A stretch of 64,000 bases of DNA from positions 372,001 through 436,000 of the forward strand of contig NC_018396.1 of assembly GCF_000208865.1 (NCBI RefSeq). Reading direction: 5' to 3'. The notes beneath the pieces are model-generated. The model was not told the DNA's origin, did not search any database, and was given only the letters and a program-made list of their open reading frames with translations. Shown in pieces: positions 20,501-50,000 of this stretch. The first letter of the stretch is position 1. The number at the start of each line of letters is the position of its first letter. The stretch comes from Neospora caninum Liverpool (Eukaryota; Apicomplexa; Conoidasida; Eucoccidiorida; Sarcocystidae). A program made the translations under genes and the position numbers.

Positions 20501-20690
20501 CGTTTCACAAATGTCTGTATCCTTACCCCTTCATAGGGTGCCAGACGCGGTTAGGCCCCAGAATACAATGACATTAATTGCGCCTGTCATTTGCTCGCGA
20601 AGCGCAATTTTCTCGACCTGCTTCTTCAGCTGAGAAATCATTTTCGGCTGAACGAATTCCTCTGCATCCTCGATATGGTAGATGTGACAG
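17582..20690. other. Divergent intergenic region between COX15 and the unknown gene at 20691
   Basis: About 3.1 kb that must contain both promoters. It holds a perfect 30-bp palindrome (annotated separately) and an oligo-A run near 18809. The open frames here (for example 18003-18803 plus, 20182-20508 minus) show no domain. A short minus frame ending at 20531 looks more protein-like than the rest; see the findings. Confidence 0.45.
18081..18110. repeat. Perfect 30-bp palindrome with A/T core
   Basis: TACCAC plus nine T is followed at once by nine A plus GTGGTA, giving two 15-base arms with no loop. It could extrude as a cruciform or, if transcribed, fold into a hairpin. There is no transposon terminal repeat or gene beside it. 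Confidence 0.95.
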
Positions 20691-23663
20691 ATGAAAAGTA
20701 AAAGTAATCTGAATCTCGACTCTTTCTCACTCTCTTGGGCAAACAAAAGCGTTCTCCGGTGGTTCCTCAGGCCTCTGCCGTATGCGGGCATGATGAGGGT
20801 GGCCCGACTGACGGCGAACGCATTCAGCTCCAGCGAAAGGAAACATAGAGCTCAGAATAGCGTGACCCCCGTCGAAAACTTCAGTCGGTCTCAACGCATT
20901 TTGAAGGGGATCAGAATACACACTTTTCCAATCTCAACTGTCGGTGGGGAGAAAACCAGTTTCCACGACACATCGAACTCCTATAGAGACACAAACGATT
21001 TTCTGGAATCTTCTCTGCTATGTGTTTTAGAACGTAGTTTCTTCATTACCGCTCCTCGGCCTCTGTCGTCGCGCAGAATCAGGCCCACCCTTCGCCTTTT
21101 TCTCTCCTTCTTTTCACCTCCCATTTTGCTTTTATTCTTTGTAAGTGGCGTTGTGTACACTAGTGCCACAGACGGTGCTTCCTCTCCAAAGCAGTCTTTG
21201 CTAGGTGTGAAAGCCGCCTTTCCCGAACCTCGTTTCGAGCGCCGTGACCACCGGTATCCTCAGGCGGAAAATGCCAACGAGTTCCCACCCGTAAGGATGG
21301 GTGAAGGGGACCGAATGCACATATGTTGTTCTGGCTCCAGGCCATTTCCTCAAATCCCTAAGGGCGCCGAAAGCATTTCTGGACTTCTTTCCTCGGGAAC
21401 GACGACAAGCACAAGGCCGCTTCTTGAAAGCCGATCAGAGTCCGATGGGAGTTTTCCGATCTCGACAGCCCAGAATGAAGAACGAGCAAATGCCGCTGCC
21501 TCGCCAACAGAGGTGATTGTGAACGGGAGTAAAGCACACAGTGATTTTCTTAACTCATTTTCTTCCTCTTCTTCCTCTTCTGAGGCGGATCGTCTCGCGG
21601 GTTTGGGCTACATTCTCGGCCCTCCATACACCGGGGGCGGGAAACCTAAGGCAAGAGAAGAAGAAACAAAATGGCAAGAGAGCGCGTTTTCTTTCACAGG
21701 CCAACAGAGTCCACCGCCCGACAAAGCGAGTGTGGGAACTTTCGCGAACCACATTCTCGACGAGGGTTTCATTTCTTCCGAAAATAGAGATGAGAAAGAA
21801 CAAGAAGCGAAAGACCAGTTGGTGGGTGAATTCGACTGGGGGGGAAATAACAGCGAGCTTGCGCCTTCTGTAGGTTCCTCTACGAGCACAGAAGAGCGGT
21901 CTCCAGAAGACACTAGAACACAACGGAAGAAAACTCCCGTTTCGAAAGGACGAAACGCTTCGGAGAATCGGATGAAGAAGTCCTCCGTTACTGTGGAGTT
22001 TGAATTTAGCTCCCCCCCGTCACCTGCTCCGAATCCTCCCCAACTGCTGTACCTGTTTCCGGTCGTAGATAGAGAGAACGGATATGTGCATTTGCTTCCC
22101 ACAATGGCTCACACAGGGCCGTTTTTTCTCGTACCGTCTGGCGTAGACGCGAACGTCAGTAGCATCCTGCCGGGCGCATCTGCGAGTGCGGAGGAGAGAG
22201 GCGTTATCTTCCCCGAGACAGAGCTCCAGGTAGACAGCACTATTTCGACTCCCATCGCTGGGCCAGAGCGCGACGATTTCCCGACACAATCTCTTGTGAT
22301 AGATGGCTTCGCCGCTTCAAACCATGATCCTCAAGGACTCGCGCGTTCTGTAAATCAGGCTGGTGTTCCCCTCTCGGGTTTTCTCGTTCCCATCACTCCG
22401 ACGTCTGGGCTCTTCAGCCCGGCTGTTAACACGCAGCTGCCTCCTCATTTCTCTCAAGTCAGACACATAGGAGCCAGAGGGAAAACAACAGCCGGAAGAG
22501 ACGCTCGCTTCGTTTTTCATTTGCCTCCCGTACCATCGATCCTTGACTCCTCTCTTGCATCTTCGCTGTTGTATAGTGGAGCGCAGAACGGACAGCGTTC
22601 GATTGGAACCTCTTCGATTGTTCCAGGCCACCAACACAAAATCAGTCTTTCCCCTGTCTCACCGAATCTTTCTCCACGTGACGTTTCGCACGAGGCGGCC
22701 CTGTCGCCCTCCTCATTTTCCGGTCCTTCTCCATCTCCGCTGTTGAGCGACATATCAGCTGACGATCCGGCAGGCGCAACTGTCGCAAGTACGGCCAGCA
22801 CGCAGCATCAGACGCTTTCCTCACCCACACTGTTGCCACCGACTTTGTCTGCACGTCGTAGCTTTGCACAGGAGACTCCTGAATCTTTTGTAGACCAGCC
22901 GTCCCTCGCTGGCCAAGGGACCGCTTCAGCAGGGAAGATTTCCCCCAGCAGTACGCATGCTCCGGACTATACGGATGGGCCGCCTACAAGGCCAGTTGGT
23001 CCGTTCGAAAAGGACTCCAGAACAGGCTCTGCGAGACAGCTGGTTCCCCCGAAAACGGAGACAAACGGCGCGTTCTCCGGAGGTGAGCAAAGACCGTCCC
23101 AGGATTCCAGCAGGCGCGACTTCATTGCCAGCAACTTGACAGGTGGACAGGCTGGCCTGACGCTCGAGAGACTCGTTCAACTCGCTCGTCGCCACGCGCC
23201 GCCAGCTCCAAGTCAAGTGCTAGGCAGCGAAGATCCCGTAATCTCGATCTCGACGTTGTTATTTCCTCACCAACACGACACGGATACCTCGATTTCGTGG
23301 GCAGATTCACCAGGATATTGGACGGCTAGCCAGCCCGTGCTGCCTCAACTGGACTCCCTTCTTTCAATCCTGACAGGCCTGGACCGCGATCTCTTGTGGC
23401 GGTTCTTCACGGGACCAGGTAAGAGCCACGTTTGGCCTCGAAAACGGAACTGAATTGCTTGCTGCTGTGAGACGCAACAGCACAGCAACACCCGGCAACA
23501 CAGATGGAAAAAAGGCCGACGAAAAAGTACCTAGATCAGAGTAGGCGAAAGCGAGGCACCTACACTGTGCAGGTTTATCCCCTTGTCGAATTCTGTGTTT
23601 ACTCTATGCTTGCGCTTTCTCTTGAACAGTAGCATTGGGGACAAGTCGAGGATGCAGGAACAT

Positions 23664-26465: not shown

Positions 26466-29400
26466 CTACGTGGCCTCAGCCGGCTCCTCATCCTTAGCTT
26501 CCTCCTCCTGATTCGCTTCCTCCTCTTGTTTTGCTTCCTCCTCCTGATTCGCTTCCTCCTCCTGATTCGCTTCCTCCTCTTGTTTTGCTTCCTCCTCCTG
26601 ATTCGCTTCCTCCTCTTGTTTTGCTTCCTCCTCTTGTTTTGCTTCCTCCTCTTGTTTTGCTTCCTCCTCCTGATTCGCTTCCTCCTCTTGTTTTGCTTCC
26701 TCCTCCTGATTCGCTTCCTCCTCCTGATTCGCTTCCTCCTCCTGATTCGCTTCCTCCTCCTGATTCGCTTCCTCCTCTTGTTTTGCTTCCTCCTCCTGAT
26801 TCGCTTCCTCCTCTTGTTTTGCTTCCTCCTCTTGTTTTGCTTCCTCCTCCTGATTCGCTTCCTCCTCTTGTTTTGCTTCCTCCTCTTGTTTTGCTTCCTC
26901 CTCCTGATTCGCTTCCTCCTCTTGTTTTGCTTCCTCCTCTTGTTTTGCTTCCTCCTCCTGATTCGCTTCCTCCTCTTGNNNNNNNNNNNNNNNNNNNNNN
27001 NNNNNNNNNNNNNNNNNNNNNNNNNNNNNNNNNNNNNNNNNNNNNNNNNNNNNNNNNNNNNNNNNNNNNNNNNNNNNNTTCGCTTCCTCCTCTTGTTTTG
27101 CTTCCTCCTCTTGTTTTGCTTCCTCCTCCTGATTCGCTTCCTCCTCCTGATTCGCTTCCTCCTCTTGTTTTGCTTCCTCCTCTTGTTTTGCTTCCTCCTC
27201 CTGATTCGCTTCCTCCTCTTGTTTTGCTTCCTCCTCCTGATTCGCTTCCTCCTCCTGATTCGCTTCCTCCTCTTGTTTTGCTTCCTCCTCCTGATTCGCT
27301 TCCTCCTCTTGTTTTGCTTCCTCCTCTTGTTTTGCTTCCTCCTCTTGTTTTGCTTCCTCCTCTTGTTTTGCTTCCTCCTCCTGATTCGCTTCCTCCTCTT
27401 GTTTTGCTTCCTCCTCTAAGACTCCCTCTTCGACCGTCGGGGATACTTTTGTCTCCACTCGTGCCAGTGCTTCGAGGGCCTGGCTGTCCTTAGCCCCGAG
27501 TGACGTGAAGGTGTCGTGCACAAACTTCACACCAGTCTTCAGGTGCTTCATAAGGCTCTTGAATCGCGAATTGTGCACGCTGCCGAAGAACTGATTCCAC
27601 GCGCGAAACACATGGGCAGAAGGCACGCGGTACAACAGCGTCTGGAGGCCTTTCTGACTCTTCAAGTAGAACTGGACGGGCTGAATCACGCGGTACTGGG
27701 TATGGTACGCCATCTGCGCAAAAATGAAAATGCATTTATCCTTGATGTACGTTTGCACGGTAGGATGCAACGCGATTTCGACGTGGTACTCCAGCAGGGG
27801 GATTTGCAGGCACGTGTCCACGGGTCCAACATCGAGTTTGTCCAGTTGCTTGTAGGGCGATGGCTCGCGCTTCACTTCAAAGAGGTCCATGAGCCGCCGC
27901 GACCCACTGCCTTCACGTTTGCCCTGAGCGTCTGCGTCTGCTGCCTGCGAAGCCTTTTCCGCCTGGTTCTTCAGCTCCAGCAGCCGTTGCTCCAGAGCTG
28001 CCTTCGCCTCCGGCAAGTTCTTGATGGGCCCGAGCAGGTTCTCCAGCTGGGCCAGATCCTCCGGACTGAGTGACGGGCGAACACGCAGTGCCTCGTCAAT
28101 GACGGCGAGTTGGTCTTCAACTTCTTTGAACTCAAACATGAGCGCATCCGCTCGTGTCTCGCTCTGAGTTGCGAGACTCGGAGGAACCACCGACTCTGGA
28201 ACCGGCGTGACAGTTCCATCGTCGGCCTGTGGCGGCGGGAGTCCTGCGACCTTCAGTCCGGCGTCAAAGGCCGCATCGCGTTCTTCCAAATCTCTGCGGA
28301 GTTTCGCGGTGAGCGTGTCAAATTCGCGCCGCAGTCCGTCGATCGATTGCGTCGCTGCTTGCAGCGCTTCTTGAACAATCGGGACAGACCGCTGCTGTTC
28401 GGAAAGAACGGCCTCTTGAGCGAGGACCATCTCGGCTCGCCAAATGCTCGCTTTCTTATCCAGACACCTCTTCTCCAGTTCGGTCGGCGCACGGTCCCCC
28501 AGCTCGTCGTTGAGGTCGCGGATGTCTTGCTCAATGTTTGCCCGTTGCGCAGTGAGGTTGTCCAGTTGTGTCTTGGCTTCCGGCGACGTTCGAGCTTCCT
28601 CCGGAAGCTTTTTCACTTGGTTCATAAAAATCTTGATCTGCCCCAATTTCGTCTCGAGGTCCTGTCTCCGCTGAAACAAGTCCCAGGCTCGAGACGGGCG
28701 CATGGGTTCCATCTGCCGCTGCAAGCGCTGTTCCATGGCAGCCAGTTCTTCTCGGGTGCCCTTGACTAGCCTCTCGAGCTCAACGGCCCGCATCTTGACT
28801 TTGTCGCGCTCCTCTTGACGAAGGTTCATCAAATCGGCCAAAGCGCGTTCGTTCTTGAGCAGCTGCTCCCGCTTTCGTGTGATGCGTGCCACGAGCGAAT
28901 CGTCAGGGTACTTGATGGCCGGCAGCGGGCCCTTGACCTCGCCGCCTTCCGTCGTTTCCGCACCTTTCCCATCGCCCTTCTCCTTCGTCGGCCCACGCAC
29001 ATCTGGGTTCTTTTTTATGTCGTTCTCGATCGCGACAATTTCCTTCCGCAGCATCTGCATACTGAGGATGAGGCGCTCCAATTCCTTCTCGCCGTCGCGA
29101 TCCTGCACGCCGTCGCGCTCGAGAGCCAACTCCCGGCCTGTCTGCTGCCGCATCTTGCGCGCCTCGACGTACGCTTTCTCAAGTTGAAACAACTGGGCAT
29201 ACCGGGGGTCATCGGCTGCAGGCATCGTGTCTTTGAGCTCCACGAGCTCGCGGTACTTTTTCATCATCTTCTCGTAGTCCCCAGCGAGCACATGCATTTC
29301 GGAAATGGCCTGCGCAATGCGCGAGACGACGCTGATCCCCTCAGACAACAACATTTCAACGGCGTTCTCGTCCATAATCTCATAGGCGTTTTTCTCTTTC

Positions 29401-32400
29401 CCGAGCTGCTCATACTTGACCACCAAGTCGTTGATTTCGGATTGGTAGAATTTTATCCGCTGCGCAAGGACCGGACACTGACGCGCAAAAGTTATCTCTC
29501 TGCTGATGCGCTCCTCGTTCGCATCTGCAAACGCTGTTCGCGCTTGCTCCAACTCGTCGTACCGCAGCCGCCCCTCCGCGATGGGGTCCATGAACTGAAC
29601 GTCACGATCATCCTTGTTCGATCGCTTGCTGACCCGTCGCCCAGTCGCTTTCCCTGTTCGGCCGTCGATGAATTCCACGATCATGTAGTCTTTGGTGAGC
29701 CGCAAGGCAGCAAAACCCGTGGCCGTCGTGATCCGCTCCGCGATGTTCACTTTGTACTGTCCATTCACCGGAGCGAAGAACCGGTGGGCTTGCCTCTGAT
29801 CCCGCCCTTCCGGACGACACCCGCCAGGGTTAAAGGCGAACAGAATGCGCCGCCCGGACCAGCAGAGAATGGGATACAGCGCGCCTCGCAGCCGACCGAT
29901 CCACCCCCGACCGACATCTTTGTCGAGGAGCCGCGCTCCTGCGCCGCTGCTGATGAAGGCGATGGTCGTGTTTCTGTTCAGGTCTTCCATAGAGACATAG
30001 TCCATGAAATAGTCGTGGCCGGAAACGTACGCATCCACCTCGTAGTGCGTCAAAAGCATCTGGATGAGGACAGCCTCTGTGCCGCGCGGCTGGCCGTTCT
30101 TGTACAAGTCGTCGACGTACTGCAAGCGCCCTTGTTCGCCTTGAGTGCCCGTCGACAGCAGTGGGTGGTGCCCCATGAGGATCAACCAATTCGTTGTCTG
30201 ATTGACTGCCGTGTACAGTCGGTCGCTCAGCCACATGAGGCGCTCCATCATGGAGTGCATATTGTTCGCTGCAAAATACGAAAAAGACGTCGCAAACAGG
30301 AGAATCGGCCGACGCGTCGACACCCCCCCCCCCACGCGCCAAGAACGGCGCAATCTCTCCGGTGTGACGACACGGATCACAGACGCCATAACAGGCCCCA
30401 ACGGGGTTACCGTTGCGAATGCTAAGATCGAATTCAACACGGCCTTTTTTCCTCAGAGTCGCTCAAGGGCACCTCTCTCTTGGAGTCACATGTGCTTTTC
30501 GAAACGCAGTCGACTGGGGAATGAACAAAAAGGTAAAAACACGTCGCAGACCAGCAACGTGCCGTTTCGGCTGATGCTGGACTCACCGACTGGATTGCCG
30601 ACAAAGAGAGACCATGTGTTGATGTTGATCACCGTCGCGTTGAAGGACTCTTGCTGAATCGTGCCATCCGCCATGGTCATATTTGCCGTGAAATTGAACG
30701 TTACTGTGTACGCGTCACTGGGCATGTACCAGTTCTGATGCTCCTGTGTATAGTGGTGTCGGATAGAGGCAGAAGGGTTCACCAGAGCCTCCTCGTCTCC
30801 AAGCGTCATCAGCCACGGTATGTCAAGTCCGGCGTCCTGGGAACAGCAGAGCGCAATCACAGTGACAACTCCTTGCGGACAGTGGCGACACGTATTTGCC
30901 GTGAGAATAGGAATCGGCGAGCAGCCGGAAAGGTCTCAACGACCCCAAAGATGTTCCCCTCCAGCCCCACGGAACACTTCGTTCTCTCAGCCGTCTCTTG
31001 CACCGTACATCCACCCCATTCCACGCCGTCCGAGCTGTACGGGGAATCAACGGCTTCTAGAGGAGACGAAACGGAGCAGAGTCGTAGACGAACAGGGAAA
31101 GGGCGGTCCCGTTAAACGCATCCACTTCCTCGCTACAAGCAACAGGCTCATGCATGATACGCCCGTTCGAGCGCGGAGATTACACGATGGCGTCCGGGCA
31201 GTGCGCCAGCAGAAGGAAGCACGGAACTTCTCCCAAATGACGACAGTCAGAGACAGGAGCGCCTCGACTACCGACCAAAAGCATCGACGTCGGTCTTACT
31301 CAAAGGCAAACAACGTCTTCACGATTTGAGAGCACGTCCGTTTCACCAGCAGCGCGAAGACGTGGGCGTCGCAATTCAGTGTGTGCACGCTCAACTCTAT
31401 AAATGGAGTATCAAGGTCCGAGAAGATTCCCTACCACGCATCATCCTACGAACATACGCGCATCACTCTACAGTGGTAGGTCGTCGTTCTTTAGCAGGAA
31501 ACGTTGTAGCGAGCCGAATCCCTTGAAACGTACCTTGACGAAGACGTCGTACCACTTTGTGCTGAATCGTTCGTCACGAGCCGAGAGCGGACCAGGGATT
31601 CCAAAAAAATCCCCCAGGCCCAAGACAGCGTCTGCCTTTTCTTTTTCATGCCACGTTTTCAACGCCGCAACAACTTGATCGATTTCGTTTGCCCACAGGA
31701 ACCGCTTCAGACTGTACCAGAAACCCTTCCTCTTTGCGCGATGTTTGTACTCGCCGATGCCAGTGTTTCCGACGAGAAGCAACTTGAGCGAGTTCGTGTC
31801 CGTTTTTTCGACGGAGATGGTATCCACTGAGTGCTCCGACCACGTTTCCTGCATCACGCACTTGAGCGTGGTGCACTTGGGGAACTTCATCGACGGATAG
31901 TGGCCGTCACGTATCAGATCTTCTAAGCTTCGCTTTCCCTTCCATGTCCCTGGCGGTAGCAGTGGGGGGACGAGCCGTCCCTCCCGGGCCAGTTCCCAGT
32001 TGCGCGCAACCTCCCGGAGGACGTCGATCTGAGTGAAGGATTCGTCCGTAACGTCGAAAAGAACAAAGAGGTCTATGATGTTGGTTTTCATCAGTAAGTC
32101 GTCGACCGTCCTAACGTCGCGGTGGTACAGCTCTTCCTGCAGTCGCTCCACCGATGCCGGCAAGGTGTCGGCATACACGCCTCGTGCGACACGGAGAACA
32201 CTGTACGGAAGGCCTCGTAAAAACCCGGCGTCCCGTTCCGTTAGAAGCGGCTTCTTGGCAAGATCCCTACCTTCTTCGCCAGTCCTCAGAAACGAGTTCC
32301 CATCGCAGACCCAGTCCCGGACACGGCGCTTTGCTGCAGCCAGATACGTGTACACTTCGACGTTCAAGAGCTTGTTCATGTTATCTTCTGGGCTTGTCGG

Positions 32401-32940
32401 CCGCTCAGATTCGCTTTGCGTTTGCTCGTGGATCATCTGATCCTGGTAGCGACTGTGTGCCCGAAGCAACGCAGCCTCCGTGACGAAGCTTTGCAACAAC
32501 CAATTCATGTTGCCATTCTCGTTGAACCAACGCAAAAAGAGTGTCATCACGTCGTCCATTGTGGCGTGAAAGGCAGCCGAACGGTCTGCTTTATGCTTGC
32601 CCGCAACAAACACCACACTGTCCAAATTCAAGCTGGGCATTAAACGATGAACCGGCTCCCATACAACAAACTTCTTCACGATGCTGCTCAGGCGTCGAGG
32701 CTGCATCCCGCGTTCCTGAGGCAAACGGTCGCTCCCTCCTAGAGAGTCCGCGGACTGACCGGCGGCCTCCGCGAAACCCGTGTAACGTGGGATGCCAGCC
32801 CAGCTGATTGTTCTACGTCCCCGATAAGACCATGACGTGAGCAGGAGAAACATCGAAATCAGCGCGAGGAGCCAGAAAAAGTGACGACTCCGAATGTTTT
32901 GCCGCCGGAAGGCCACCACCGGACGTATCAGGCCTTCCAT
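26466..32940 (-). CDS. Purple-acid-phosphatase/GAP50-like membrane protein with giant coiled coil, paralogue A
   Basis: Three exons (31534-32940, 30587-30836, 26466-30268) join in phases 0 and 1 to about 1819 aa, counting the N gap. A signal-anchor segment lies at residues 21-37. A conserved N-terminal region follows, then a calcineurin-like metallophosphoesterase core of the purple acid phosphatase type: VGNTGIG (about 391), GLGDFFG (D444), PWLMTLGDEE (GDEE 482-485), LILMGHHP (H586/H587), AYVSGHDYFMDY (GHDY 636-639). The family consensus is GDxG, GDxxY, GNHD, GHxP and GHDH, so the first Asp, the Tyr, the Asn-His of motif III and the last His are replaced. Catalysis is doubtful; the fold may act as a scaffold, as known for GAP50. 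The rest is about 700 residues of Glu/Lys/Arg-rich coiled coil, a conserved domain (DVGPVDTCLQIP, then HNSRFKSLMKHLKTG) and the EEEA(K/N)Q repeat. The start at 32940 matches paralogue B; an in-frame Met also occurs at 32982. Confidence 0.85.
26497..27415 (-). repeat. 18-bp coding minisatellite (EEEAKQ / EEEANQ)
   Basis: About 45 visible units of 18 bases form the acidic tail of paralogue A. Two unit types differ at three positions and change one residue, Lys or Asn. The array is interrupted by the N block. The reading frame is the same on both sides of the gap, and every visible unit is intact. Confidence 0.95.
26979..27078. other. Assembly gap of 100 N inside the minisatellite
   Basis: Exactly 100 N, a common placeholder length, sit within the 18-bp tandem array. 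The true number of repeat units is therefore unknown. Confidence 0.99.
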
Positions 32941-34622
32941 CTTGTCTCTGCAAAAGAAAAGGTTCGGGGGCTCTTCCTGCAATCTGTCAAGAACCGACGC
33001 GAACCCCTGGTACCGCCAAGCTCTTGATACACTGCTTCCTTGTCGGGTTACTCGAAACCGCAGGGCTGCCCTAAAAATCCTGAGCGACAGGTTTTAGGAC
33101 CGGAAGACAGTCAATCCTCCTTTCGGAGGGGAACGAGCAGCACGGCACGTTTCTCCAGCGAAGATTCAATAGAAGGAACCGCGGCAGGTGGAGCTGAAAA
33201 CGGCACGACACAAAAAACGAGAGAATAAACGCCAGATTTAGACCCAGTCTACAGAGACTGCGGATCCTTATCCCAAGACTGTGTACCGGTTCTCTCCCCG
33301 TTAGCATCTGTTGGGGTTGGACACAGAGGAAACCGTGTAATAGGAACATAACGACGGAAACCGACCGAGATTAAACGAACGTAGACAGATAAGCTGTTAA
33401 CGCAAAACGGGACATCGACTGCGCACAAGTCAGCGAGTAGTGACGACACCAATCCAGCGCGGATCTACGGAAAAGGAAAACAAAGTAATGGGGAGGGCAG
33501 TCCCATCTCATCCTCATGAGTCCCAGGCCTTCACTTTCCGGTACTGCAGAACAAAACGACCTAGTGCAACACGTTCAACACATACATTTGCTCGAGGCGG
33601 AGTTCAAAGCGCCTGCTTCTGTCTCTAGATACGCAGTTCATAGTCTTGTACATCTGAAGAGTGACAAACGTCTTTTGTCCCATGAGAAATTGGAAGCGAG
33701 GCTCGTACAGACAGCAAAAAGGTGAGAAACATTTCTCGCCTGTCACTCGTTATTCTTGCAGGACCCTCTCAGAAACAGTGACAAACTCAAATCGAGCTCT
33801 CAATGCCAGTTGTGTTAACTCGGCTGGGGCCTCAGAGACGCGGAACCTCGATTTTGCGACACACAACCCTACGGACAGCCATACCCAAAGAATCCTCGCG
33901 TTAGCCGTGCAACGCGTCCATGGCGGAAAGAAAAAAGTCACTGGGTTTAAAATAGAGGCCATCCGGGAAATTGTGAGCCGAGCGCATGCAAAGTTCTAAG
34001 CACTCAACGCAAAGAAAGGCACTGTACATCTTGCACCGGACTCAGGTTTACTGCTATTCTGTCATTCTCTCGGCCACGCCGTTTTCCCTCCACTGGTTGC
34101 GGAGCGTCAACGTGTCGTGTAGTCACTTCCACGGCAGCGGCTGCATGCTTTTTTTAGCCTGCCATGAACCTGCTCGACACCCACAGCTCAAGAATCTCGT
34201 CTCGTTTCCCGTAGAGAGCCTTTTCAGTTGCCCCTCCAAGCACCTCTTGCTCGGGAACATCTTGCCGACACCGTTCACAGTTGCTTCGCCGCTGCAACGG
34301 CCGTTGTCGAGCGACACCGGTCAGCAGCCTTGTGCCGGTCAGGAAACGAAGCACGACCGTAGTTCCGTTGTATAAATATATATTGAATGTCACGGACGAT
34401 GGCCTCTCTGTGTGAGAAAATGAGTTACGGATTAAGAAGGTTGGGGTCGTTTTTCCTTCCGCCGCCGCCAGGCGCCTAGCGCTGGCATCGGCGGCGGGGC
34501 CACCAAGAGCGCCGGAGTGTGCTGCGGTGTGGAGCTCAAACCGCAACAAGGCCGAAACTGGGTTCTTTTGCCCACTGAATCAGTCCCACGGACTCTTGGT
34601 GGCAAGGGGGACGGGGACTGGC

Positions 34623-34638
34623 GGGGGGGGGGGGGGGG
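34623..34638 (+). repeat. G16 homopolymer
   Basis: Sixteen consecutive G on the plus strand in the intergenic region. The length should be treated as approximate because such runs are often miscounted. Confidence 0.9.
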
Positions 34639-35579
34639 TGAAGGCATTGTTTCCCAGTTTTAGTTGTGTTGTGAGGCTCTGCGATCTCGTCTTAAAACGT
34701 TTTGTTCTCTCGCTCTCGCTGTCCGACACTCTAGCTTTGAGTTAAGACACCCTCCGATCCTTCTTCAGCCTTTATATGCACTTCGTTCAGACCGCAGTGA
34801 ACTCAAGAATTGCACAGCTTGTCGCTCTACATGGTTCCGGCCAGCTTATATGTCATGGTGTCTAAATCGGATCATATCGACTAGAGAAGCATACATCGTA
34901 GTGACAATATAAAAACACCACTCAGGAGTCCGCGCGCTCACGACGTCCTTGACGCCTCTCTGATGAACGGCCGACCTCCCTTTCCAGTACGTTATTTTCC
35001 GCTCATGTCTGATCCACGCTCATGCTTCAAAAATCAATTCAGTAACCTGCGAGAGGGATGCACAGGGGATGGGTTCCGCTGCAGCCGTTCTTCAAGGGCC
35101 GCTGATTTTTTGAGTAGAGATCAGCAGTCGCTGCTGTCAAGCACTCATGTCTCTCCGCGCGCTAAAAGCCTTAGAGAATCCGCTGAACGCGAACCGTTCG
35201 ACAGGGGCACGACGGAAGCGGTGACGCGTACTATGGCTGCATTCCCGCGCATAACTCCCTAGTTAGGTAGCCCCAGCCTATCCGACTGCGTGAGCGGCAG
35301 AGGAAGCAAACGGAATTGGGTACGGCGCTACGAACCTTCCTTTTGCTGTATTTACCTTGTGGCTCCTCTTGTATGGTTCAACCATCAACGTGCACGTGAA
35401 GGAGGGGTTCGTGGGAGCAGCCGTTTAGTGCCACATTTCGCCTGCCTCTACCTGGATGCCAGCATTCGCTCCGTGTCACGTCATGCCGACAGAGGAAGTG
35501 ATCACGTGCGATCAAGTGTCTCTGATGTGCCGACGAGGAGAGGCTGTACACGGGCAACCCCCTGGACTCCTCGAGGCAG

Positions 35580-36180
35580 CTAAAAGTGTTGGATTTCAAT
35601 ACCCTATGACATTAAGGTATTCAACATCGGTTATGTTCCAGGAGAACGATATGGATTACTGTTGTCACTCGTATTCACAGCGAGAGAAAACTATTGAGAC
35701 TCGAGTATGGTCAGTTCCACAGTATTTTGGAAGTGAGAATCCGGAGACAGGTTTATTTGTAAGCTCTTTCTGGGGGGCTTTTTCAAGGATTTAAACTTAA
35801 ATATCATTATGTTATGGGTTCAATCGCAAACCATTGAGATTACGAACTTACGGTTTGGGTGCGCGAGTGCCTGGATGCCTGGTGACTTATATTAAAATCC
35901 TTATTAAAGGGAGCACAGTTCCCTAGGAATCCAGTTGAGTGCTCTGCCTCAACAGGTTGAGCATAGGTGCATCTTATGTTCCGAATGGTATCATCATACC
36001 TACTTGGACCCGTTTAGATACGCTGAGTGCAGCCGGTGCCCCAGAATCGAGTCCATCAGATCGAAAATGTGAGGCGCCCGTCAGACAAGCTGACACACTG
36101 CAAACATGGCCTTCATCACGCCCATGCGAATATACATACATGCCCGTTTTAAAAAGAACAGTTCCTTATTGATTCAGTGA
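35580..36180. other. A/T-richer island of unknown origin
   Basis: This stretch lacks the CT/GA-rich runs of its neighbours and is visibly richer in A and T (for example around 35790-35920). It has no long open frame and no clear match to a gene. It could be an inserted organelle-derived fragment, since sarcocystid nuclear genomes are known to carry many mitochondrial DNA pieces. I could not recognise cob, cox1 or cox3 coding in any frame, so the origin is open. Confidence 0.3.
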
Positions 36181-37474
36181 TTGCCACCATACATGACAAG
36201 CACATAAACTGCATCCACGGCTTCGCGCGACGCTGCCACCGAACCTGCAATTCCTCGGATAGTGTTAGCCTTAACCCCAAGACGTACGACGCGGGACATT
36301 CCGAAGTCTTTCCAGTTTGACAAGCAACGCTAATCAGTGCGAGAACACGTACACTTGCGACGCCTCTTTTCCGTATTGCAGAGCTCCTCTGAATGCATTT
36401 CCACAATTTCCCGACTTTCTGGCCACATCGCAGTGCACATGATACTGAACCAGGCGCAGCTTGCATCCACCTCGCTTCCAGCCTTTCCCAAGGACTTAAA
36501 AAGATGGAAGAACCTGTGCAGCAGACTCGCAACAACCCTCACACATGCCCAGTCACAGCAGCTGGGGAAACGCTGGACCGTCGACGCTTGTTTCGCCTTC
36601 GCACCAGCGCCCCCATGCGGTAAGAACTACATGGATGCTGCGATGTGACGGCACCTGGCGGACGCCGAAACGTAAACTGGAGCAGCCGAGAGGGACTCCC
36701 CAACGGAACGAGAACGCCGTGGGTCAGCAGGGCGCCCTGGACGAGAGCAAATATCCGCCTATTGGCGGATGAAAAAAACATACACCAGAAGGATGGAAAC
36801 GGAGGGCTCTTTCGTTGTGCACTCACGAACCGCCTGAAGCCGACGGATCTACCTGCGAGCCTTTGCCGTGCTGGAGCCTTCCGCAGCGCGGTCACCTCAG
36901 CGCTCCTATCGGTTAGGCAGCCTGGTAGATTCACTCATAGATTTATAAGTGTGTTGACTGCCGTGGAATCGTAATCCATTCTACACGTGAACAGGTTGGG
37001 GTGCCCCCAGACAACAGCCTGCTGGTTCTCTGCGGAACAGACGAATTCCTGGGCGTGTACCCGCAACAGCTGGTTCGTGTGACCGAGTAATTCGTTTGTC
37101 CGTGGCTCCGAGCTTCGCATTAGCAGGGGCGTGTGGGCAAGAGCTCTATGGAGACCTGCGTTCGCCTTCGAACCTTCAACGATCAATTCCAGAGGCGACA
37201 GTTCGCCTATGGAGTCAAAAAAAGAATTCGCCCCACCTCGCGCATCGTAACGCGGGCCTCCGCCACGCCAGGTGGAGCAAAATCGAATAAGGAAAGTCGG
37301 CGGAGGTGACGGGACAACCAGCCTTGCAGGGCGCCACTGCAATCCAGGCAGCTGAGCGTTATGCCCCGTTTCGCATTTCCCCTGCTGGTTCAGCTGAACC
37401 GCGACATACAGAGGCCGAACGACCGCCGCTAGAGACCCTTGCGACTAGCGCGAGAGTCATGCTCTGAGCGATCC

Positions 37475-40400
37475 TCAGTCTTCGTAGCTGGTGTCGATTT
37501 CATCGATTGGGATATCTGTGCCGGGCTCTTCTTCACCAGGCTCCGCCTCTTCTGACTGTTCCTCCTTTTCTTCTTTTGGGCTTTTGTCTTCCTCTGGCGT
37601 CTTGGGAGCTTCGCGCTCAGCCAGTACGTCCATATCGACGTCATTGTCCCTCACTTCAATATCCTGATCCAGAGGAAGCTCGAGCTCTTCCTCTCTTCGC
37701 CGTATTGCCTCGAGAAGTTCCATCTGCATCGCCTCCGCAAACGAATAGGTCTTATACGTCTCGTGCACGAACTGAAGTCCGTGCCGTATGTCTTTCATGA
37801 TACTCTTGAAACGCGACGAGTGCGTGTATCCAAAGAACTCGCTCCACGCCCGAGCCACATGAACCGAGGGATCATCGTAGAGGGTTGGCGTGAGCCCTTG
37901 AGGGCCTTGCGAGAAGAACATGCCGTTGTGTATGTACCGCAGCTGCTGCCGATACGCCTGGTTGGCCAGACGGTGCACGCACTTTTCCTTCACCTCTTCT
38001 TCGCTCTGCGGTTTCAGTCTGCGCTGAACTGTCGCCTCGAGCATCGGCACCTGCATGCAGGCATCGGTCGGGCCAACGTCGACCTTTTCTATCTTCTTAA
38101 ACGGCGAGGGGTCTCGTTTGGTCTTGAACAACTCGAGAACGGATGCAAGCCGCCGCGGAGAGGTCGCCCCAGGACTCAGTTCCTCATCTGCGTCCGGCGT
38201 CTGTGCTGCGGAATTCCCCGCAATGCCGCCGTCAGCAACGCGTGCTCTGTCTTCCGCGTCATCTGTCTCCAGAGGTTTAGAGTCTCCGGCTGGGCTCGAC
38301 AGTTCGTCCTCTTCCTTCTTCGTCTCTGTTTTCGAGGCCTCGGCTTCTTCCACGTCCGCCCCGGGGGACTCCTCCACTCCCTCCTGCTTCTTCCCCTCTT
38401 CAGGCACTTCTGTCGGAACCAGGTTCTCCAACATATTCGTCTCTCGTTCCAGTCGTTTTCGAAGAGCCGCAACCCGCTCTCGCATGCGTTCCTCCTTCGC
38501 GGGGAGGTCCTCGACGGGCCCCAGCATCGCCTCTAGCTGTTCCTTCTCGTCACCAGTGACTGTGTCCGCGGTTTGCAAGGCCTCCTCGACCGCAGCCAGA
38601 GTTTCCTCTGCCCGGTCGAGCTCGTTCGCTGCATTGGCTGCGCTGTCGACCTTGCCGGAGTCGATAACCATTTGCGCCTCGCTTTCCGAAAGCTGCTCGA
38701 CCTCAGGCCCGACAACGACGTCTTCGCTGAGGTCGTGGACGTTGTAGCCCTTTGCACTCATTTCCTGCTCCCACGCGTCCTCAATGGCGTTCAACTCCTG
38801 CCGCACCTTGTCCTGTAGCGCTTCCACCTCCATGTGGAGAGTCAGTTGCTTGTCGGCTGCCGCTTGCAACGCTTTCTGGATCTGGGGCACCGCCAGCTCC
38901 TCTGGCGACAGCAGTTTCCGTTGCTCGAGCACCAGTTCGTTTCTCTTGAGTTCTGCGCTTTTGGCCAAGAACTCGCTTTGGAGGGGCGTCATTTTACGGT
39001 CCGCTAGCTCGTCCACGACGTCTGTCAACTCTTTCTCCAGCGCGGCCCGCTGCGTTTCGATGGCCTCGAACTCGTCTTGGACGCTCTGGGAATGGCGCTT
39101 CGCAGGCGGCAAGAGCTCGACATCGTGCATGTACGCGTTGATCTGACGCAGCTTTGTCTCCAGTTCTTCTTTCACTTGGAACTTCTCCCACTGATCCGAA
39201 GGCCGCATCGGCTGCACGCTGCGCTTGCGAATCATGTGGAGGCGCGCCAACTCCTGCCGCACGCTCGCCTCCTGGCGCTTGAGAATGTTGATTTCAGCCC
39301 GCATCTTCTTCAGTTCGGACTGGGGATACCTCGCCAGCCCCTCGAGAACTGCGTGGTGCCGCCGGAGTTGAAGCTCCTTGCGACGAATGCGCGCCAGAAT
39401 CGAGGTATCCAACGGTTTGATGGCTGGGGTCTTCTTGGGCTTCTTTGCTCTTTGCTCGCTCTCCTTCTGTGCCTTCTTGGCGGCGGCGGCCTTCTTCGTC
39501 TCGAGGTCAGGGAATTGCTTCATCTCACGCTCCAGGTCATCCATCTGCTTCCGCAGAAGTTTCATGGTCATAATGTACTTTCTGAGGTTCTTCTCGTCTT
39601 CGACACCTGCCGAGCTGGAGTCGGACTGCAAGGCGTCGAACGTTTTCCGGCGCAGCTTCCGCGTCTCGACGTACTGCTTCTCGAGTTCAAAAAGGTCTTT
39701 GAATCGCGGGTCTTCTTTTTCGGGCATCTTCTCCTTCAACTCAAGCATCTCTTTATACCGCTTCTCCAACCGGGCGTGGTCAGCAGAAATGACGTACATG
39801 GTAGAGAGAATTTCCGAGATCTTCCGTTGGACGTTTGTCCCAAGAGTCGCCATTAGGTCTCGCATCGTGTCGGTCATGGTTTCGTACACTTCCTTTTGCT
39901 GCGTCAACTCGATGTACCTTCCGGCAAGTTCATTCATCTCCGTTACGTGGAACTTCAGCCGCTCGGCCAGCACGGGACACTTTTGCGCAAAGGCAATTTC
40001 CTTCTCGATCAGCTCGGCATTCTCCGCCTCGAACGCCTCGCGGTCAAGCAGCAGCTCCTCATACCGCAGCCGGCCGTCGGCGAAAGGGTCCAGAAATTTG
40101 ATCTCTCGGCCTTCGCGGTTCGTCCGCCGGTACACTTTGTGTACGGCAGACTTCTTCGTGCGCGCGTTGATGAAGTCTAGGAGCATGTAGTCTTTCGTCA
40201 GTTTCATCGCTGCAAATCCGGTCGCCTGCGTCACGCGCTCCTCGATGTTCACCTTGTAATTGCCGCTTTGGGACTGAACGAAGAACTGATCTGGATGCTG
40301 CTGGTCTTTGTTCAAGGGTTTGCAGCCTCCAGGATGGAATCCGAAAAACACCTTTCGTCCTCCCCAACACAGCAGTGGATACAACGCCCCCCGCAGACGC

Positions 40401-43400
40401 CCCGCCCATCCTCGGCCGACGTTTTTGTGGAACAGGCGCGCGGTCGCTCCGCTGGTAATGAAGGACACCGTGACGTTTCGGTCCACGTCTGTGATGGAGT
40501 TGAAGTCCATGAAGAGGTCGTGGCCGGACACGTACGCGTCAACCTGGTAGTGCATGAACAGTGTGTTGATCAAGAATGACTCCAGGCCTCGAGACCGCCG
40601 ATTCTTGTACACATCGTCGATGTTCTGAAGGCGCGCTTGCTCCCCTTCAGGACCCGTCGAGAGCAGTGGGTGGTGCCCCATCACGATGATCCATGAGGAG
40701 TTCTTCTGCGTAGCTTTGTACAGCTGCTCGCTCAACCACCAGAGCTTGTTCGTCCATGAAGCCATGTTGTTCGCTGCGCCACATGCACACACGACCCCAG
40801 GAACAACGCCGTTCCATTTCCACGTGTGGGCGCCAGCCCCTGCGGCGCGACGCCCGGTGCTCGGCGAGATGCCTTCCCCCGAGCAAATGCCCGTGCAAAA
40901 CATTCGGAACGCATCTCCGCTTTTCCATGCGGCCGATACCCACAGTGTATTCGAATACTCGCACATGCAAAGCGAGCTCTATGCCTCTGCGCCGACTCGC
41001 CATGCCGTGGGGCGACTGTGGTTAGCGGTGGCGGCGACGGCGGGGAAATCGTCTTGCAGCCCCGTCGGCAGTCGAGGACAGCGCGCCTTTTCGGATTGTG
41101 GCGAAAAACGTGGACTAAGAACTGTGCGCGGCATCGATTCCGCTAGCTCTGTCTAGAAACGGACCTGGCTGCGGCCGAGCAAAAGACGGCAGCGGGCCCC
41201 ATCGGACACAGCTGTCTCCCCATCCGACGGCGGAGACACCCGTTTCGAACGCACGCGGGCAACCTTTTTTGTGTGACTGCCCGGGTCGGGTGCTTACCAA
41301 TGGGGTTTCCAACGAACAAGTCCCAGGTGTTGATGGCAAGCACGGTGGCGTTGAAGGCCGTCTCCTCGAACATGCCATTTGCCAGCGTCAGGTTCGCCCC
41401 GAACTTGAAGTTCACTGTGTAGTAGTCGTTCGGCAGATGCCAGTTCTTATGCTGGACTGAGTAGTGGTACCGAACCTGCGACGAGGGACTGAGTACGGAG
41501 TCTGCGTCTCCGAGGGTCATTAGCCACGGAAGATCCAGGCCAGCATCCTGAGCACGCACACGGATCGAAAACAGAGGAGCTGTGGTCTCGTCTGTCTCCG
41601 CAGCAGTCGCCCGTTTGAATTCAGGTAAGTGTGCCGTGCACAAAGCGAGAGGGAATGTGTTTATAGCCCAGGCGCGGCCCCCGTGGCGGGGGCGACTGCA
41701 GGGGCAACCGCGTCGACGAGTGGAATGCGGCAAACGAGAAAGCGAGGGTGCGCGGGTCTCCACAAACATCGGACGCCCTTCTCAGCAAGCGGTGGACACG
41801 GGGAGCGAGGTAGGCGATACGCATGCAAGGGGTAAACACGGGGTTCAGCGGTCGGCGTTTCCGGCAGGCTGTCGCCTTTCGCTGCCGCTGTCACGTGCAT
41901 GAGACGCATCGCACTAGCGCTTCGCCCCCAACCAAGCCGAGCAGTGTGCGGTCCCGCGCGCGCGCCTCCGAGTTCCTCTCTGTGTGCAGGTCCCCGAGCC
42001 TCAGCTCATATCCCGGCTCCTCGACGCCACGAGTCGTACCTTGACGAAGATGTCATGCCACCTTTTCTGGAACCGCTCATCCCGCACGGTGGTTGCCCCA
42101 GGGAGGCCGAGCATGTCTCCTAGCCCGAGGACTGCGTCTGCCTTTTCGCGTTGGTGCCAGTCTTTCAAGGCGTCGACGGTGTGTTCGAGATCCTGGAAGT
42201 CGCCGGCTTTCTTCAGGAAGGACATCTTTTTCCGTTCGCTCAGAGGCGTGTACGACGTTCCCCGCCCGGCGCTGCCGACGAGCAGAAGCTTCAGCGCGTT
42301 GACGTTCTTCTTGCTCACCTCAATGGTTTTCTCCGGAGTCTTCCGCCACGTCCACTGCATGAAGCACTTGAGAGTGGTGCACTTTGGAAAATCCGTCTCT
42401 GCGTAGTTGTCGTCGAGAAGGAGTTCTTCCATCGTGCGTTTCTCTTTCCATTCTCCGAGCGGAATCTGCGGAGGCGAGAACTTTCCACTCTTGTATTTTT
42501 GCCAGTTCTTGTGGTATTCGCGCAGGACGTCGATCTGACTGAGGGTTTCGTCGAAGACGTCAAAGAGAACAAACAGGTCGAAAAAATTCGTTCTCGACAG
42601 GAGTTTCTCGATCGTGGTGACACCACGGATCTTGAGCTCGCGCTCGAGGCGGTGCACTGAGGCTGGCGGCTCCGAGGCGAAGATTCCCTGCGCGACACGA
42701 ATGACACTGAACGGCAGGCCTCGCATAAAGTTCACGTCGTTTTCGGTAAGCTCGTCGGGGATGTGAAACGCTTCACCTCCTCGTCGGTGAAAAGTGTTCC
42801 CATCGAAAATCCAGTGGCGGTTGCGCCGCTGACAAGCTCCGAGCCCCGCGTACACCTTGACTGGCTGCACTTTCTGCTTCTTCTTCTCCTCGTCTTCCTC
42901 AGGCTCCTCTTGTTTCTTCGTGTAGTCCTTCGCCATTTGGCTGCCGTAACGCGTGTGTTGCCGCTTCAGGGATTCCATCGTAATGAGGCCTTGCCTGGCC
43001 CAGCGCGTTGTCTTTGTGTCGTCGAACCAGCGGAAGAAGAGGATGAGGACATCTTCCAGCGTCGTGTGAAAGGACGCGGACAACGCGGCTGTGTGCCGTC
43101 CGGCGACAAAGACAACTTCGTCCAGATTCAAGGAAGGCACAGGGCGTTCGACAGGCTGCCACGTCAGCAGCTTCTTGATCGACTTCGTGACGAGCGCGTC
43201 GAGCCGCCGCGAGATAAGGCCCGGCCGCTTTCCGCTCAGTGGTGTAGCCGCGACGCCAACGGCGGAGAGAAAAGACATCCCTTCGCTGGCGCCGGAGGAC
43301 GGAGAGGACGGAGGGGACGGAGGGGACGAGAAGAACGAGATACACAGGAGAAAGACCGCCACGGACACGGCGAGGCGCGCCCGCCAGCCTCCGCGGCAGG

Positions 43401-43413
43401 TTCTCGATTCCAT
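37475..43413 (-). CDS. Purple-acid-phosphatase/GAP50-like membrane protein with giant coiled coil, paralogue B
   Basis: Three exons (42040-43413, 41298-41547, 37475-40773) give 1640 aa. Intron positions and phases (0 and 1) are identical to paralogue A, and the middle exon is 250 bases in both, so the two are tandem duplicates. A signal anchor lies at residues 14-28, followed by a Ser/Pro-rich linker. Phosphoesterase motifs are VGSAGRG (S381 where Asp is expected), GLGDMLG (D433), PWLMTLGDAD (471-474, for GNHD), IIVMGHHP (H575/H576) and AYVSGHDLFMDF (625-628, for GHDH). As in A, several metal ligands are missing, so enzymatic activity is doubtful. A long charged coiled coil follows, then the shared C-terminal domain (DPSPFKKIEKVDVGP, then SSRFKSIMKDIRHGLQFVHE). 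An acidic tail ends IDEIDTSYED without the minisatellite. The start Met at 43413 is the one just before the anchor; the frame is open further upstream. Confidence 0.86.
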
Positions 43414-46400: not shown

Positions 46401-47086
46401 CTGCGCGTTTTCATGGTCATCCTGTCGCTTATATAATTGCATATCCCCTTGCACATTCTCTCTAGCTTCGTCTGGGTGACTCGGAATTGGTTTTCGTCGA
46501 GACCACTTGAGAGGGAATCCAAACCTGCGCGGGTTTTTGCGCCGCGGCAAATGGGACCTTCCGAGGTGCGCGCAGCGTGGCCGATTCAGCGGGCGGTTCC
46601 GGCGCTTTGGTAGAACACGTCCGCCTCCTTTTTGCAGTGTCTGCTGACCGCCCTTCGACCGCAGAAGGCGATGGAGTCAGCGCGTTCCTGGCGGACCCTT
46701 TCCATATCGTCCCTGCGTTGGGCTCGAAGGCTTGTCTCTCCTTCCTCAGGCTCTCTCGTTTCGCCTGCTTGCCTTTTTTTGTGGTGCCAGCTTCAAGACT
46801 TGTTCTTTCCCATTCTTCTTCCCTTCTTCCCGTGTGTTGAGAGCGGCGTGTCGTGCTGCGTTGTCTCTTCTGCTGAACTCGCGACGCTTCCAGAGGTGGT
46901 ACGGCGTAGCCAGCTTTTCCATCGACGCATTGAGTGATTTTGGCCTTCGCTGTATAACGTTCAATCTCCCCGGACTGCCGGTTCAAAACTTGATCTCCCT
47001 CCTTGCACAGAGTGTGGTGCGAAGGGAAAGGCGCACGCGGCGGTGACGGGACCGTGTCTCCTTTGCGCTGCTCGGGGGAGTCTGAG
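43414..47086. other. Divergent intergenic region, promoters and leaders
   Basis: About 3.7 kb between the starts of paralogue B and the large disordered-protein gene. The plus strand from 45100 to 47000 is pyrimidine-rich (several TTTTTTT and CTTCTTCC runs), as expected for a 5' leader. Frames of 100-296 codons (for example minus 43619-44509) lack domains and splice partners. No gene is supported. Confidence 0.5.
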
Positions 47087-50000
47087 ATGGCAGATGTCGC
47101 CGCGATGCCCGAGGCGAAGTGTGAAATGCCCGCTGCGCAGTCCCCCAGTTCTGGTGTCTCCGATCTGTTGTGTTCTCCCCCTCAACTGAAATCTCCGTCT
47201 CCGCGTCAACTCTCTTCGAGATTCGCCACCACGAACATCGCACACATGTCTTCTCCCAACCGTTCTCGCGAGCTCGTCCAAGGGGCGGCTGCAGACCACG
47301 CCCCGGTCGGGTCGAGCCCGTGCTTTTCCCTTCGCTTCGAGGCTGCGCACATGGGCAACGAGTCGCAGGCTACCTTGCACGGCTGTCGGAAGAACTCTTC
47401 GGAGTTCGACATCCGACGCCGGCCGCGAGCTCAGCAAGTCCGAGACCGCATGCAACAAAGAAAGCAAAGACAACGGGGCGCGGAGGACAAAGGAGCAAGT
47501 GCAGGTCCGGGAAACTCTGGATTTCCGACTGGAGGAATGCTGTCGGCGCCTGCGCCACAGTTCCTTGCGGTTCCCGGTGTCAATACACCTTCCCGAGGGG
47601 CGTCGCCCAAGCGCGCCGGCGCTTGCATGCCTCCCCGTTTCCGCGAAGAGGAGATGTCGGCGGGCTTCTACTCCTTTCTTGCGCCGTCGAGCCCCAGCGA
47701 CTACGAAGTCGAGGTTGCGCGCAGCGCGTCTTCCTCGCCGGCGCGCGCTCGCCTCGTGGGGCTTCCCAATGAAATGGTCCCCCCTGGCCTGCGAACGCCG
47801 CCGTCTTTTGCCGAGGGAAACCCCGTTTCCCACAGCTCGCGAACCAGTCCAGGCGACGAGGCCGCAGCCGGCGCGTTCCCGCAGAACTTCCAGGCCTTTG
47901 GCCGTCCATATAACTGTGGAATGCGACAGGGCGGCGCTGTACCGGGGGCGCCTGTCTTTGGCGGGTCGCCTCCAGGACGCGCTCCCCAAGTGGTTTCCCA
48001 CGGCGCGTCTCCGTCGCGTGCGGCTCCAGCCCGCAACGCAGGCTCCGCTGTCCCCGTCACGCCTGTCCTTCGCGGGTTGGTGACGCCGCCTTCTTTCTCG
48101 CCGTCGACGATGTACAATCGTCGCACAGAGAGTGCGGCACGCGCAGCTGGAGCGGCGCCGAGTGAGACTCCCGATAAGCGACGAGAGATGGGCTCAGGCC
48201 TGGGGCTGCAGGCCGGTCCGGAGACCGCACCTCGACTCGTGTTCCCAGACCTCCAGGAGTTGTACAGCGCGCTAGGCCTTCCCTGTCCGTTGCCGGAGCG
48301 GAACACTTTGGAGACTTCCACTGGAAGTCCAGCGTTCCGGTCGACTTCCTTTCTTTCCCCGAACGCCGCCGCGCCGCACGCCCCGACCCGGAGTGCGCTG
48401 CACGCGACTGTCTCGGCCGCTGGGCTCGGGGCTCTTTTTCCCGGGGTTCACGACCCGTCGCATGGCGCGGGGCCTCGAGACGGGAGCGCGGGAGAGCGTG
48501 AAGACGGCGCTGCAACCTTCTTGGCTGCGCTGACTGAGATCGGCTCGGACGCGAACGGCATGCGGAAAGGGAAGCACGCCAGGGCTGCCGCCCTCGAACT
48601 TTTTCTTCGAGCCGCCGCAGCAGTTGCCACTGGAAAGGGTGGCCCAGAGGGAGACAAGGTGGACGGTCGAGACAACGCACGGATACCAGAAGGCGCCTAC
48701 GCTCAGAGTCCTCACTTGCCGACGCACGGGTACGTGCCGCGGGGGCCTGTGGGACCTACACGCCCGCCGCGATGGTGGACTGCGGTTGAGAAACCCGACG
48801 GCCGAACTTTCCAGAGCCAGTTCCAGGGCGGCAGGGCGGTCGCGGCTCGGGGCGCGTCCAGTTCACGAGCTCCGTTATTTGCTGAGAAACGGATGAACGC
48901 CTGTGTGGGGTCTCCTGCGCGGCCGAGAGTCTGCGTCAACGCAGTGCCAAGTGCGCCGAACGGGACAGAAGGGTTCGAAGCGGCCGGACGCGGTGCGGCG
49001 GAGGAAGACCCCAGCAAGACTGCTTTCGGGGACACTCTCCGCAAGGGGCGACAGAAGTCGCGCGACAGCTCGATGCTTCCGTCTTCAGAGGCGCGCGATG
49101 TGGCGTCCGGGCCGACGGGCGCTCACGGCAGACGGGCCAAAGGCTCGTCCACGATTTGCGGCAGAGCGGCCAACACCCCCGACGTCAGGCGCTCGGGCAG
49201 CCGCGCGTCCATGGTAAGCCCAGACTTTGTTTTCAGCGGAGGCGCAGCGCGGTCGATGGCGCGCGTCGGAAGCAACTCGCTCTTTTCCAACACGTCCGAA
49301 CGCAGCATCGCGTCGCCTTCGAGCTCGCTCGCGTCCCCGACGTCGCGACCGGGCGGCGCGTGGGCGGTGTGCAACGGATCTTCCCCCGGGGCCAAGAGCA
49401 CCTGGAGCACGTCGTCGGACGCCGGGAACACTGGCTGCAGCATCAGTCAGTCCAGTTGGGGCAGCATAGCCAGCAACGCGCCGAGCATGAGCGCAAGCAT
49501 CCCGGCTGTGGGACTTCCGGTCGGGGGTAGCTCGCCGTGGAGTCCCGCGTCGTCGAGGGGGGGGGCCGAGCCCCAGAGCACTGCGCCGCCGCTGAGTGCG
49601 GGACTGCGCAGGCCTTCAGAGAACGCGCCGCAGGCAGGAGCGTTCGCACCTCGACCGCGCAAGGGCCTTCGCCTCGGAGACGCAGCTGCGGCGGGCAGTC
49701 GCCCCTGCGCCAAGACCCGGAGCGCGTCTTCGGGCACTGTGCCGGGTGGCGGGGGACCGAAAAGGTCGGTGTCTCGCCTGCCTCGAAGCAAAAAGGCGGC
49801 CTCAGTCCTGCCACGCAGAGGCCACGCGAACGAGTCCCACGGGGAGAAGGTTGAGGACGGAAAGTGTGAGGCAAGCACAGGTCGAGAAAGAAGAAGCGCG
49901 AGCTGCGATGCAGATCTTCTCTGTCTGCACGCTGCGGCGAACAGTGCTCGCGCTGCGCGTGCGCTCGGCACTGGGCTTCTGCGTCCCGACGGTGAAGCCG

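Follow-up and report, generated by a model that had tools for sequence, protein, structure and literature searches.

Among the described proteins closest to the genes reported here is GRA44 of Toxoplasma gondii (TGGT1_228170, formerly named IMC2A). According to PMC6212819, it is cleaved in an ASP5-dependent manner, with RRL83-85 as cleavage site, and is found in the parasitophorous vacuole and at its membrane, apart from IMC1. GRA44 was also reported to bind MYR1 and to be required for GRA16 export and for the induction of c-Myc or cyclin E1 (PMC7031617, PMC7031616). PMC7031617 proposed for it a modified purple acid phosphatase (PAP) metal site that has three histidines, carries N in place of D and E in place of N, and lacks the tyrosine; the choice between enzyme and pseudoenzyme is left undecided there. 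A clear GRA44 ortholog in Neospora caninum is mentioned in PMC7031616, which also, relaying an earlier source, gives the paralog TGGT1_228160 as expressed in sexual stages. Here we describe two adjacent genes, A and B, in a stretch of 64,000 nucleotides of N. caninum Liverpool (contig NC_018396.1, positions 372,001 to 436,000; hereafter the window). We consider it likely that both encode GRA44-family dense-granule proteins, with B acting alongside the MYR1 complex, A as a paralog used at different stages, the PAP domain as a pseudophosphatase module and the helices as a scaffold.

Two further proteins invite comparison. UIS2 of Plasmodium, compared here by its description, is likewise vacuolar, has a PAP-type domain and is cleaved at an N-terminal PEXEL. 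PMC10900883 names it a GRA44 ortholog, whereas PMC8016102 grants some homology of the phosphatase domain only, and the identity to GRA44 is given as 28% over 21% of the protein (PMC7031616). GAP50 has a PAP-type fold according to a review, in which one study is cited for its being an acid phosphatase; it differs in belonging to the inner membrane complex and in the length of its solved chain (3tgh, 342 residues).

Orthology of the two genes

A protein search with residues 60-1000 of gene A (E ≤ 0.001) returned nine proteins, all of them family members: the deposited protein of gene A itself, two proteins each from Besnoitia besnoiti, Cystoisospora suis and T. gondii, and two others. The T. gondii matches carried the names 'acid phosphatase' (P0002, 84% identity) and 'inner membrane complex protein IMC2A' (P0007, 49%). 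One extra protein (P0010) was found by searching with P0007, and a profile search gave nothing further (10 and 9 proteins at E ≤ 0.01). A preliminary description of this DNA, made from the letters alone, had proposed an ortholog search across the coccidia and other Apicomplexa; the family members found in T. gondii, Besnoitia and Cystoisospora fell into two ortholog groups.

The tree was built on 11 rows from within the family (A, B and P0002 to P0010; P0001, the deposited protein of gene A, was omitted as identical to A) and holds no outside PAP. The group of B, T. gondii IMC2A and proteins of Besnoitia and Cystoisospora had a support of 100/100, and the group of A, the T. gondii acid phosphatase, proteins of Besnoitia and Cystoisospora and P0009 one of 97/99. 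The inner Neospora-Toxoplasma pairs (B with IMC2A, A with the A-type protein) were both supported at 100/100. P0005 fell in neither group, and P0010 formed a long branch. Because both groups contain all four genera, the duplication is older than the divergence of Cystoisospora, Besnoitia, Neospora and Toxoplasma.

P0007 has RRL at positions 83 and 1348, which coincide with the sites published for GRA44 (PMC6212819, PMC7031617), and was therefore taken to be GRA44. Judged by the tree, gene B is its ortholog. P0002 is most likely TGGT1_228160, since its product name matches (TGGT1_228160 is termed an acid phosphatase in PMC7817038) and no T. gondii family member besides it and P0007 was returned; gene A is probably the ortholog of this paralog. 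The records of the two T. gondii and two Besnoitia proteins fit a linked pair in these genera too, without demonstrating linkage.

The preliminary description had found the architecture of the two proteins unfamiliar, and had named, as what would speak against its novelty, an already described family of equal domain order. GRA44/IMC2A has this order (PMC7031617, PMC6212819, PMC7031616) and its paralog TGGT1_228160 is published as well, which contradicts that claim and closes it as a lead. The GRA44-family architecture and the tandem paralog are already in print, and what is new here is the comparison.

Gene structure

Genes A and B share a three-exon plan with a middle exon of 250 bases, an intron 1 of phase 0 and an intron 2 of phase 1, and in the protein alignment both introns sit in identical columns. 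The DNA of the middle exons is 64% identical. The same-strand tandem arrangement and the shared exon plan had been described correctly beforehand, as had the span of the pair, which runs from the stop of B to the start of A. Splice sites were positioned by eye; those of gene A are supported by the deposited protein NCLIV_045270 (P0001), which equals our model from residue 46 onward.

The start of NCLIV_045270 lies 45 residues downstream of an in-frame ATG (43279-43413). Reading from this upstream ATG aligns with the start of the T. gondii protein, and the deposited protein lacks the N-terminal hydrophobic stretch because its start lies too far downstream. Such a stretch, a possible signal sequence, was read in both A and B; the model of B exon 1, otherwise poor, has a helix at residues 17-40. 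No deposited N. caninum protein for gene B was found in the protein searches with A and P0007 or in the profile search. The protein of B was read across a 100-N gap, giving 34 X among its 1819 residues, and this assembly gap perhaps spoils a deposited model. The open frame that contains exon 3 of A, searched against all six frames of the N. caninum genome (57.5 Mb, 14 contigs), gave at least three matches, which correspond to A and two pieces of B.

It is hardly credible that our models fuse two genes, one for the phosphatase part and one for the coiled coil, and nothing was found in favour of this reading. The PAP domain spans all three exons and the helical region continues unbroken in exon 3, deposited proteins of T. 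gondii, Besnoitia and Cystoisospora contain both parts, and a full-length tagged T. gondii GRA44 product of about 180-200 kDa was observed beside the cleavage product (PMC7031617, PMC6212819).

RRL motifs

As in GRA44, a pair of RRL motifs brackets the PAP-helical fragment in both A and B, and in A the two motifs lie in places matching those of P0002. The first RRL was present in all nine rows covering that column and the second in 10 of 11 rows; gene A has an additional RRL at residue 1459. Mutation of the RRL sites in T. gondii GRA44 left secretion and rescue intact (PMC7031617, PMC7031616). The Besnoitia A-type protein (P0003) has RGL in the second column, which agrees with a dispensable cut at this site.

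The PAP-like domain and its relation to GAP50

The PAP core noted in the preliminary description was recovered in a hidden Markov model search of both proteins, with Metallophos (PF00149) matches of 2.7e-08 for A and 5.2e-08 for B, both over the gathering score. Matches to PDB purple acid phosphatases reached 1.8e-15 for A, and 3e-15 for the family profile against 1qfc. The likeness to GAP50 that had been suggested along with it came down to a weak profile match: among the solved PAPs GAP50 was not the best match, 3tgh ranking seventh of seven with 5.1e-4.

It is very improbable that A and B are GAP50-like anchors in the inner membrane complex carrying a coiled-coil scaffold, towards which the preliminary description had leaned. 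The former name IMC2A and the weak profile match to Plasmodium GAP50 would suit such a role. Other PAPs outscore GAP50 by far, tagged T. gondii GRA44 did not colocalise with IMC1 (PMC6212819), and the RRL motifs suit ASP5 processing and vacuolar secretion.

The PAP region was the best conserved region, metal site excepted, in all three comparisons made. A and B are 47% identical to each other N-terminally and 57% across the PAP region; the helical part gives 34%, and the stretch behind the second RRL 38%. In the same order, A was 85, 88, 69 and 80% identical to its T. gondii ortholog (P0002), and B 73, 79, 70 and 64% to GRA44 (P0007).

Loss of metal ligands

We take the metal site of a competent PAP to consist of seven ligands, named here as family columns in uteroferrin numbering: D14, D52, Y55, N91, H186, H221 and H223. 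The corresponding residues are S381, D433, G436, D472, H575, H626 and L628 in gene A and N392, D444, G447, D483, H586, H637 and Y639 in gene B, so that each Neospora protein matches three of the seven. The first half of the alignment is empty for P0009 and P0010, and the early columns are therefore covered by nine rows rather than 11. D52 was retained in all nine, and H186 and H221 in all 11. D14 was replaced throughout (S in six rows, N in three), Y55 was glycine in 9/9 rows and N91 was replaced in 9/9 (D in seven, E in two). The substrate histidines H92 (nine rows) and H195 (11 rows) were replaced in every row as well. H223, the second histidine of the HxH motif, was kept in the two T. gondii proteins and P0010 and lost in the other eight of 11 rows. 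The letters in this column (L, Y, S, F, H) differ even between Neospora and Toxoplasma orthologs: Y639 of B stands against H641 of P0007, and L628 of A against H622 of P0002.

These columns agree with the site proposed for T. gondii in PMC7031617. In our alignment the second HxH histidine, which is part of that proposal, is not a family-wide feature. The ligand losses favour the view that catalysis is under relaxed constraint while the fold has been kept, and with it a non-enzymatic role. The loss of a proposed-site histidine in close relatives bears on the question stated in PMC7031617 of enzyme versus pseudophosphatase for GRA44.

Alternatively, A and B could be catalytically active, their metal site having been remodelled (D52 as bridge, H186, H221 and D/E at 91), and could dephosphorylate MYR proteins or effectors in the vacuole. 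Such a site is conceivable given that D52, H186 and H221 do not vary among the rows covering them and that no other part of the proteins is as well conserved as the PAP region; the PF00149 matches above cut-off and the modified site put forward in PMC7031617 are in line with it, as is the reported activity of UIS2. We regard this as rather unlikely, as four of the seven ligands are substituted in each Neospora protein, Y55 is glycine and H92 and H195 are replaced in every covering row, and the second HxH histidine varies between close orthologs.

Several observations weigh against a non-enzymatic PAP module in cleaved, secreted proteins. The second HxH histidine is present in both T. gondii proteins, GRA44 and P0002, and a metal might still be bound by D or E at position 91, so that an altered site is conceivable. 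For D14 the column rests on the alignment of the family members with one another and is consistent with PMC7031617; the PDB alignments begin after D14. UIS2, the Plasmodium relative, was reported in a review to have Mn-enhanced phosphatase activity. TGGT1_228160 was upregulated in a phosphate-transporter mutant (PMC7817038), which may point to a role connected with phosphate and to expression beyond the sexual stages. Cleavage may not matter for function, given the T. gondii RRL mutants. Expression, cleavage or localisation data for Neospora were not found in a limited literature search.

Helical extension and C-terminal tail

After the PAP region 882 residues follow in A and about 1050 in B (gap X counted), which makes the earlier figure of about 1000 a fair one. 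GAP50 presumably has no long helical extension of this kind. The extension had been called largely coiled coil. This stood in so far as about 555 residues of A were modelled as helical and a 3.5-residue periodicity was seen in patches, mainly inside the helical stretch, in both A and B; the remainder is taken up by linker sequence, by a C-terminal segment that is conserved and by a tail of acidic or repeat character. Exon 3 of A was modelled by AlphaFold2 from 11 aligned sequences. Residues 771-1325 mostly had a predicted local distance difference test score of 70-90 (mean of the whole model 62.3), and the predicted template modelling score was 0.36, so that helix packing is not fixed by the model. 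Fold searches were uninformative. As modelled, the region looks more like a succession of helices than a single giant coiled coil.

GRA44 (P0007) likewise has a PAP-like domain, a helical region, a conserved C-terminal segment and an acidic tail. Gene B differs from it in a long terminal (N/K)QEEEA array, which begins at residue 1501 and has 44 NQEEEA/KQEEEA units outside the gap. According to PMC7031617, T. gondii GRA44 can do without its last 105 residues for both function and localisation. Counted on P0007, this tail begins at the column of B residue 1488, although P0007 comes from a different strain than the one studied there and the exact start may shift; the repeat of B would thus fall within the equivalent of the dispensable tail.

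Proposed role

Our own evidence comprises gene structure, orthology, RRL motifs, the PAP fold by sequence and the loss of metal ligands. Cleavage, vacuolar location, MYR1 binding and the need for export were published for T. gondii GRA44 only, and we infer them for Neospora. On this basis A and B would be secreted by dense granules and cut by ASP5 at the two RRL sites, a cut that in T. gondii was reported as unneeded, both for secretion and for the export function. B would act together with the MYR1 complex, by which dense-granule effectors cross the vacuole membrane. A, as an ancient paralog, would most likely do the corresponding job in other stages, as suggested by homology and the one published statement on stage expression. 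The PAP domain, presumably without catalysis, would most likely be a binding module, and the helical region a protein-protein scaffold. The tie to a membrane system that the preliminary description had supposed is in line with the location of T. gondii GRA44 at the vacuole membrane (PMC6212819).

More tentatively, and with somewhat more doubt than trust, the whole GRA44 family may be pictured as vacuolar pseudophosphatases whose PAP domain binds the effector-export machinery, with stage-specific paralogs (GRA44 in tachyzoites, and in sexual or other stages the 228160 type) that provide every stage with an export complex of its own. For these coccidia, gene A becomes a candidate for such a second export component, specific to certain stages.

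Feature coordinates and neighbouring open frames

Table 1. Features of genes A and B, in positions of the window.
Feature	Positions	Strand	Residues	Details and basis
Gene A	37475..43413	(-)	1640 aa	exons 43413-42040, 41547-41298, 40773-37475 (stop included); splice model
Gene B	26466..32940	(-)	1819 aa	exons 32940-31534, 30836-30587, 30268-26466 (stop included); splice model
PAP-like domain, gene A	40124..42390	(-)	342-758	across all three exons; PF00149, PDB PAPs, ligand columns
PAP-like domain, gene B	29619..31884	(-)	about 353-769	across all three exons; PF00149, ligand columns
RRL (TEXEL-type) motif 1, gene A	43201..43209	(-)	69-71	behind putative signal anchor; aligned with GRA44 RRL83-85
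RRL motif 2, gene A	38147..38155	(-)	1415-1417	aligned with GRA44 RRL1348-1350
RRL motif 1, gene B	32689..32697	(-)	82-84	
RRL motif 2, gene B	27891..27899	(-)	1343-1345	
Helical region, gene A	38423..40087	(-)	771-1325 (about 555)	22 modelled helices of 4-46 residues each
18-base tandem repeat, 3' end of gene B	26497..27417	(-)		codes (N/K)QEEEA; split by 100 N (26979-27078), so full length not given by assembly

Three long open frames on the (+) strand, at 20688-23453, 46994-50761 and 50961-53699, gave no Pfam match at E ≤ 0.01; they code for 921, 1255 and 912 aa, respectively, and are possibly further genes.
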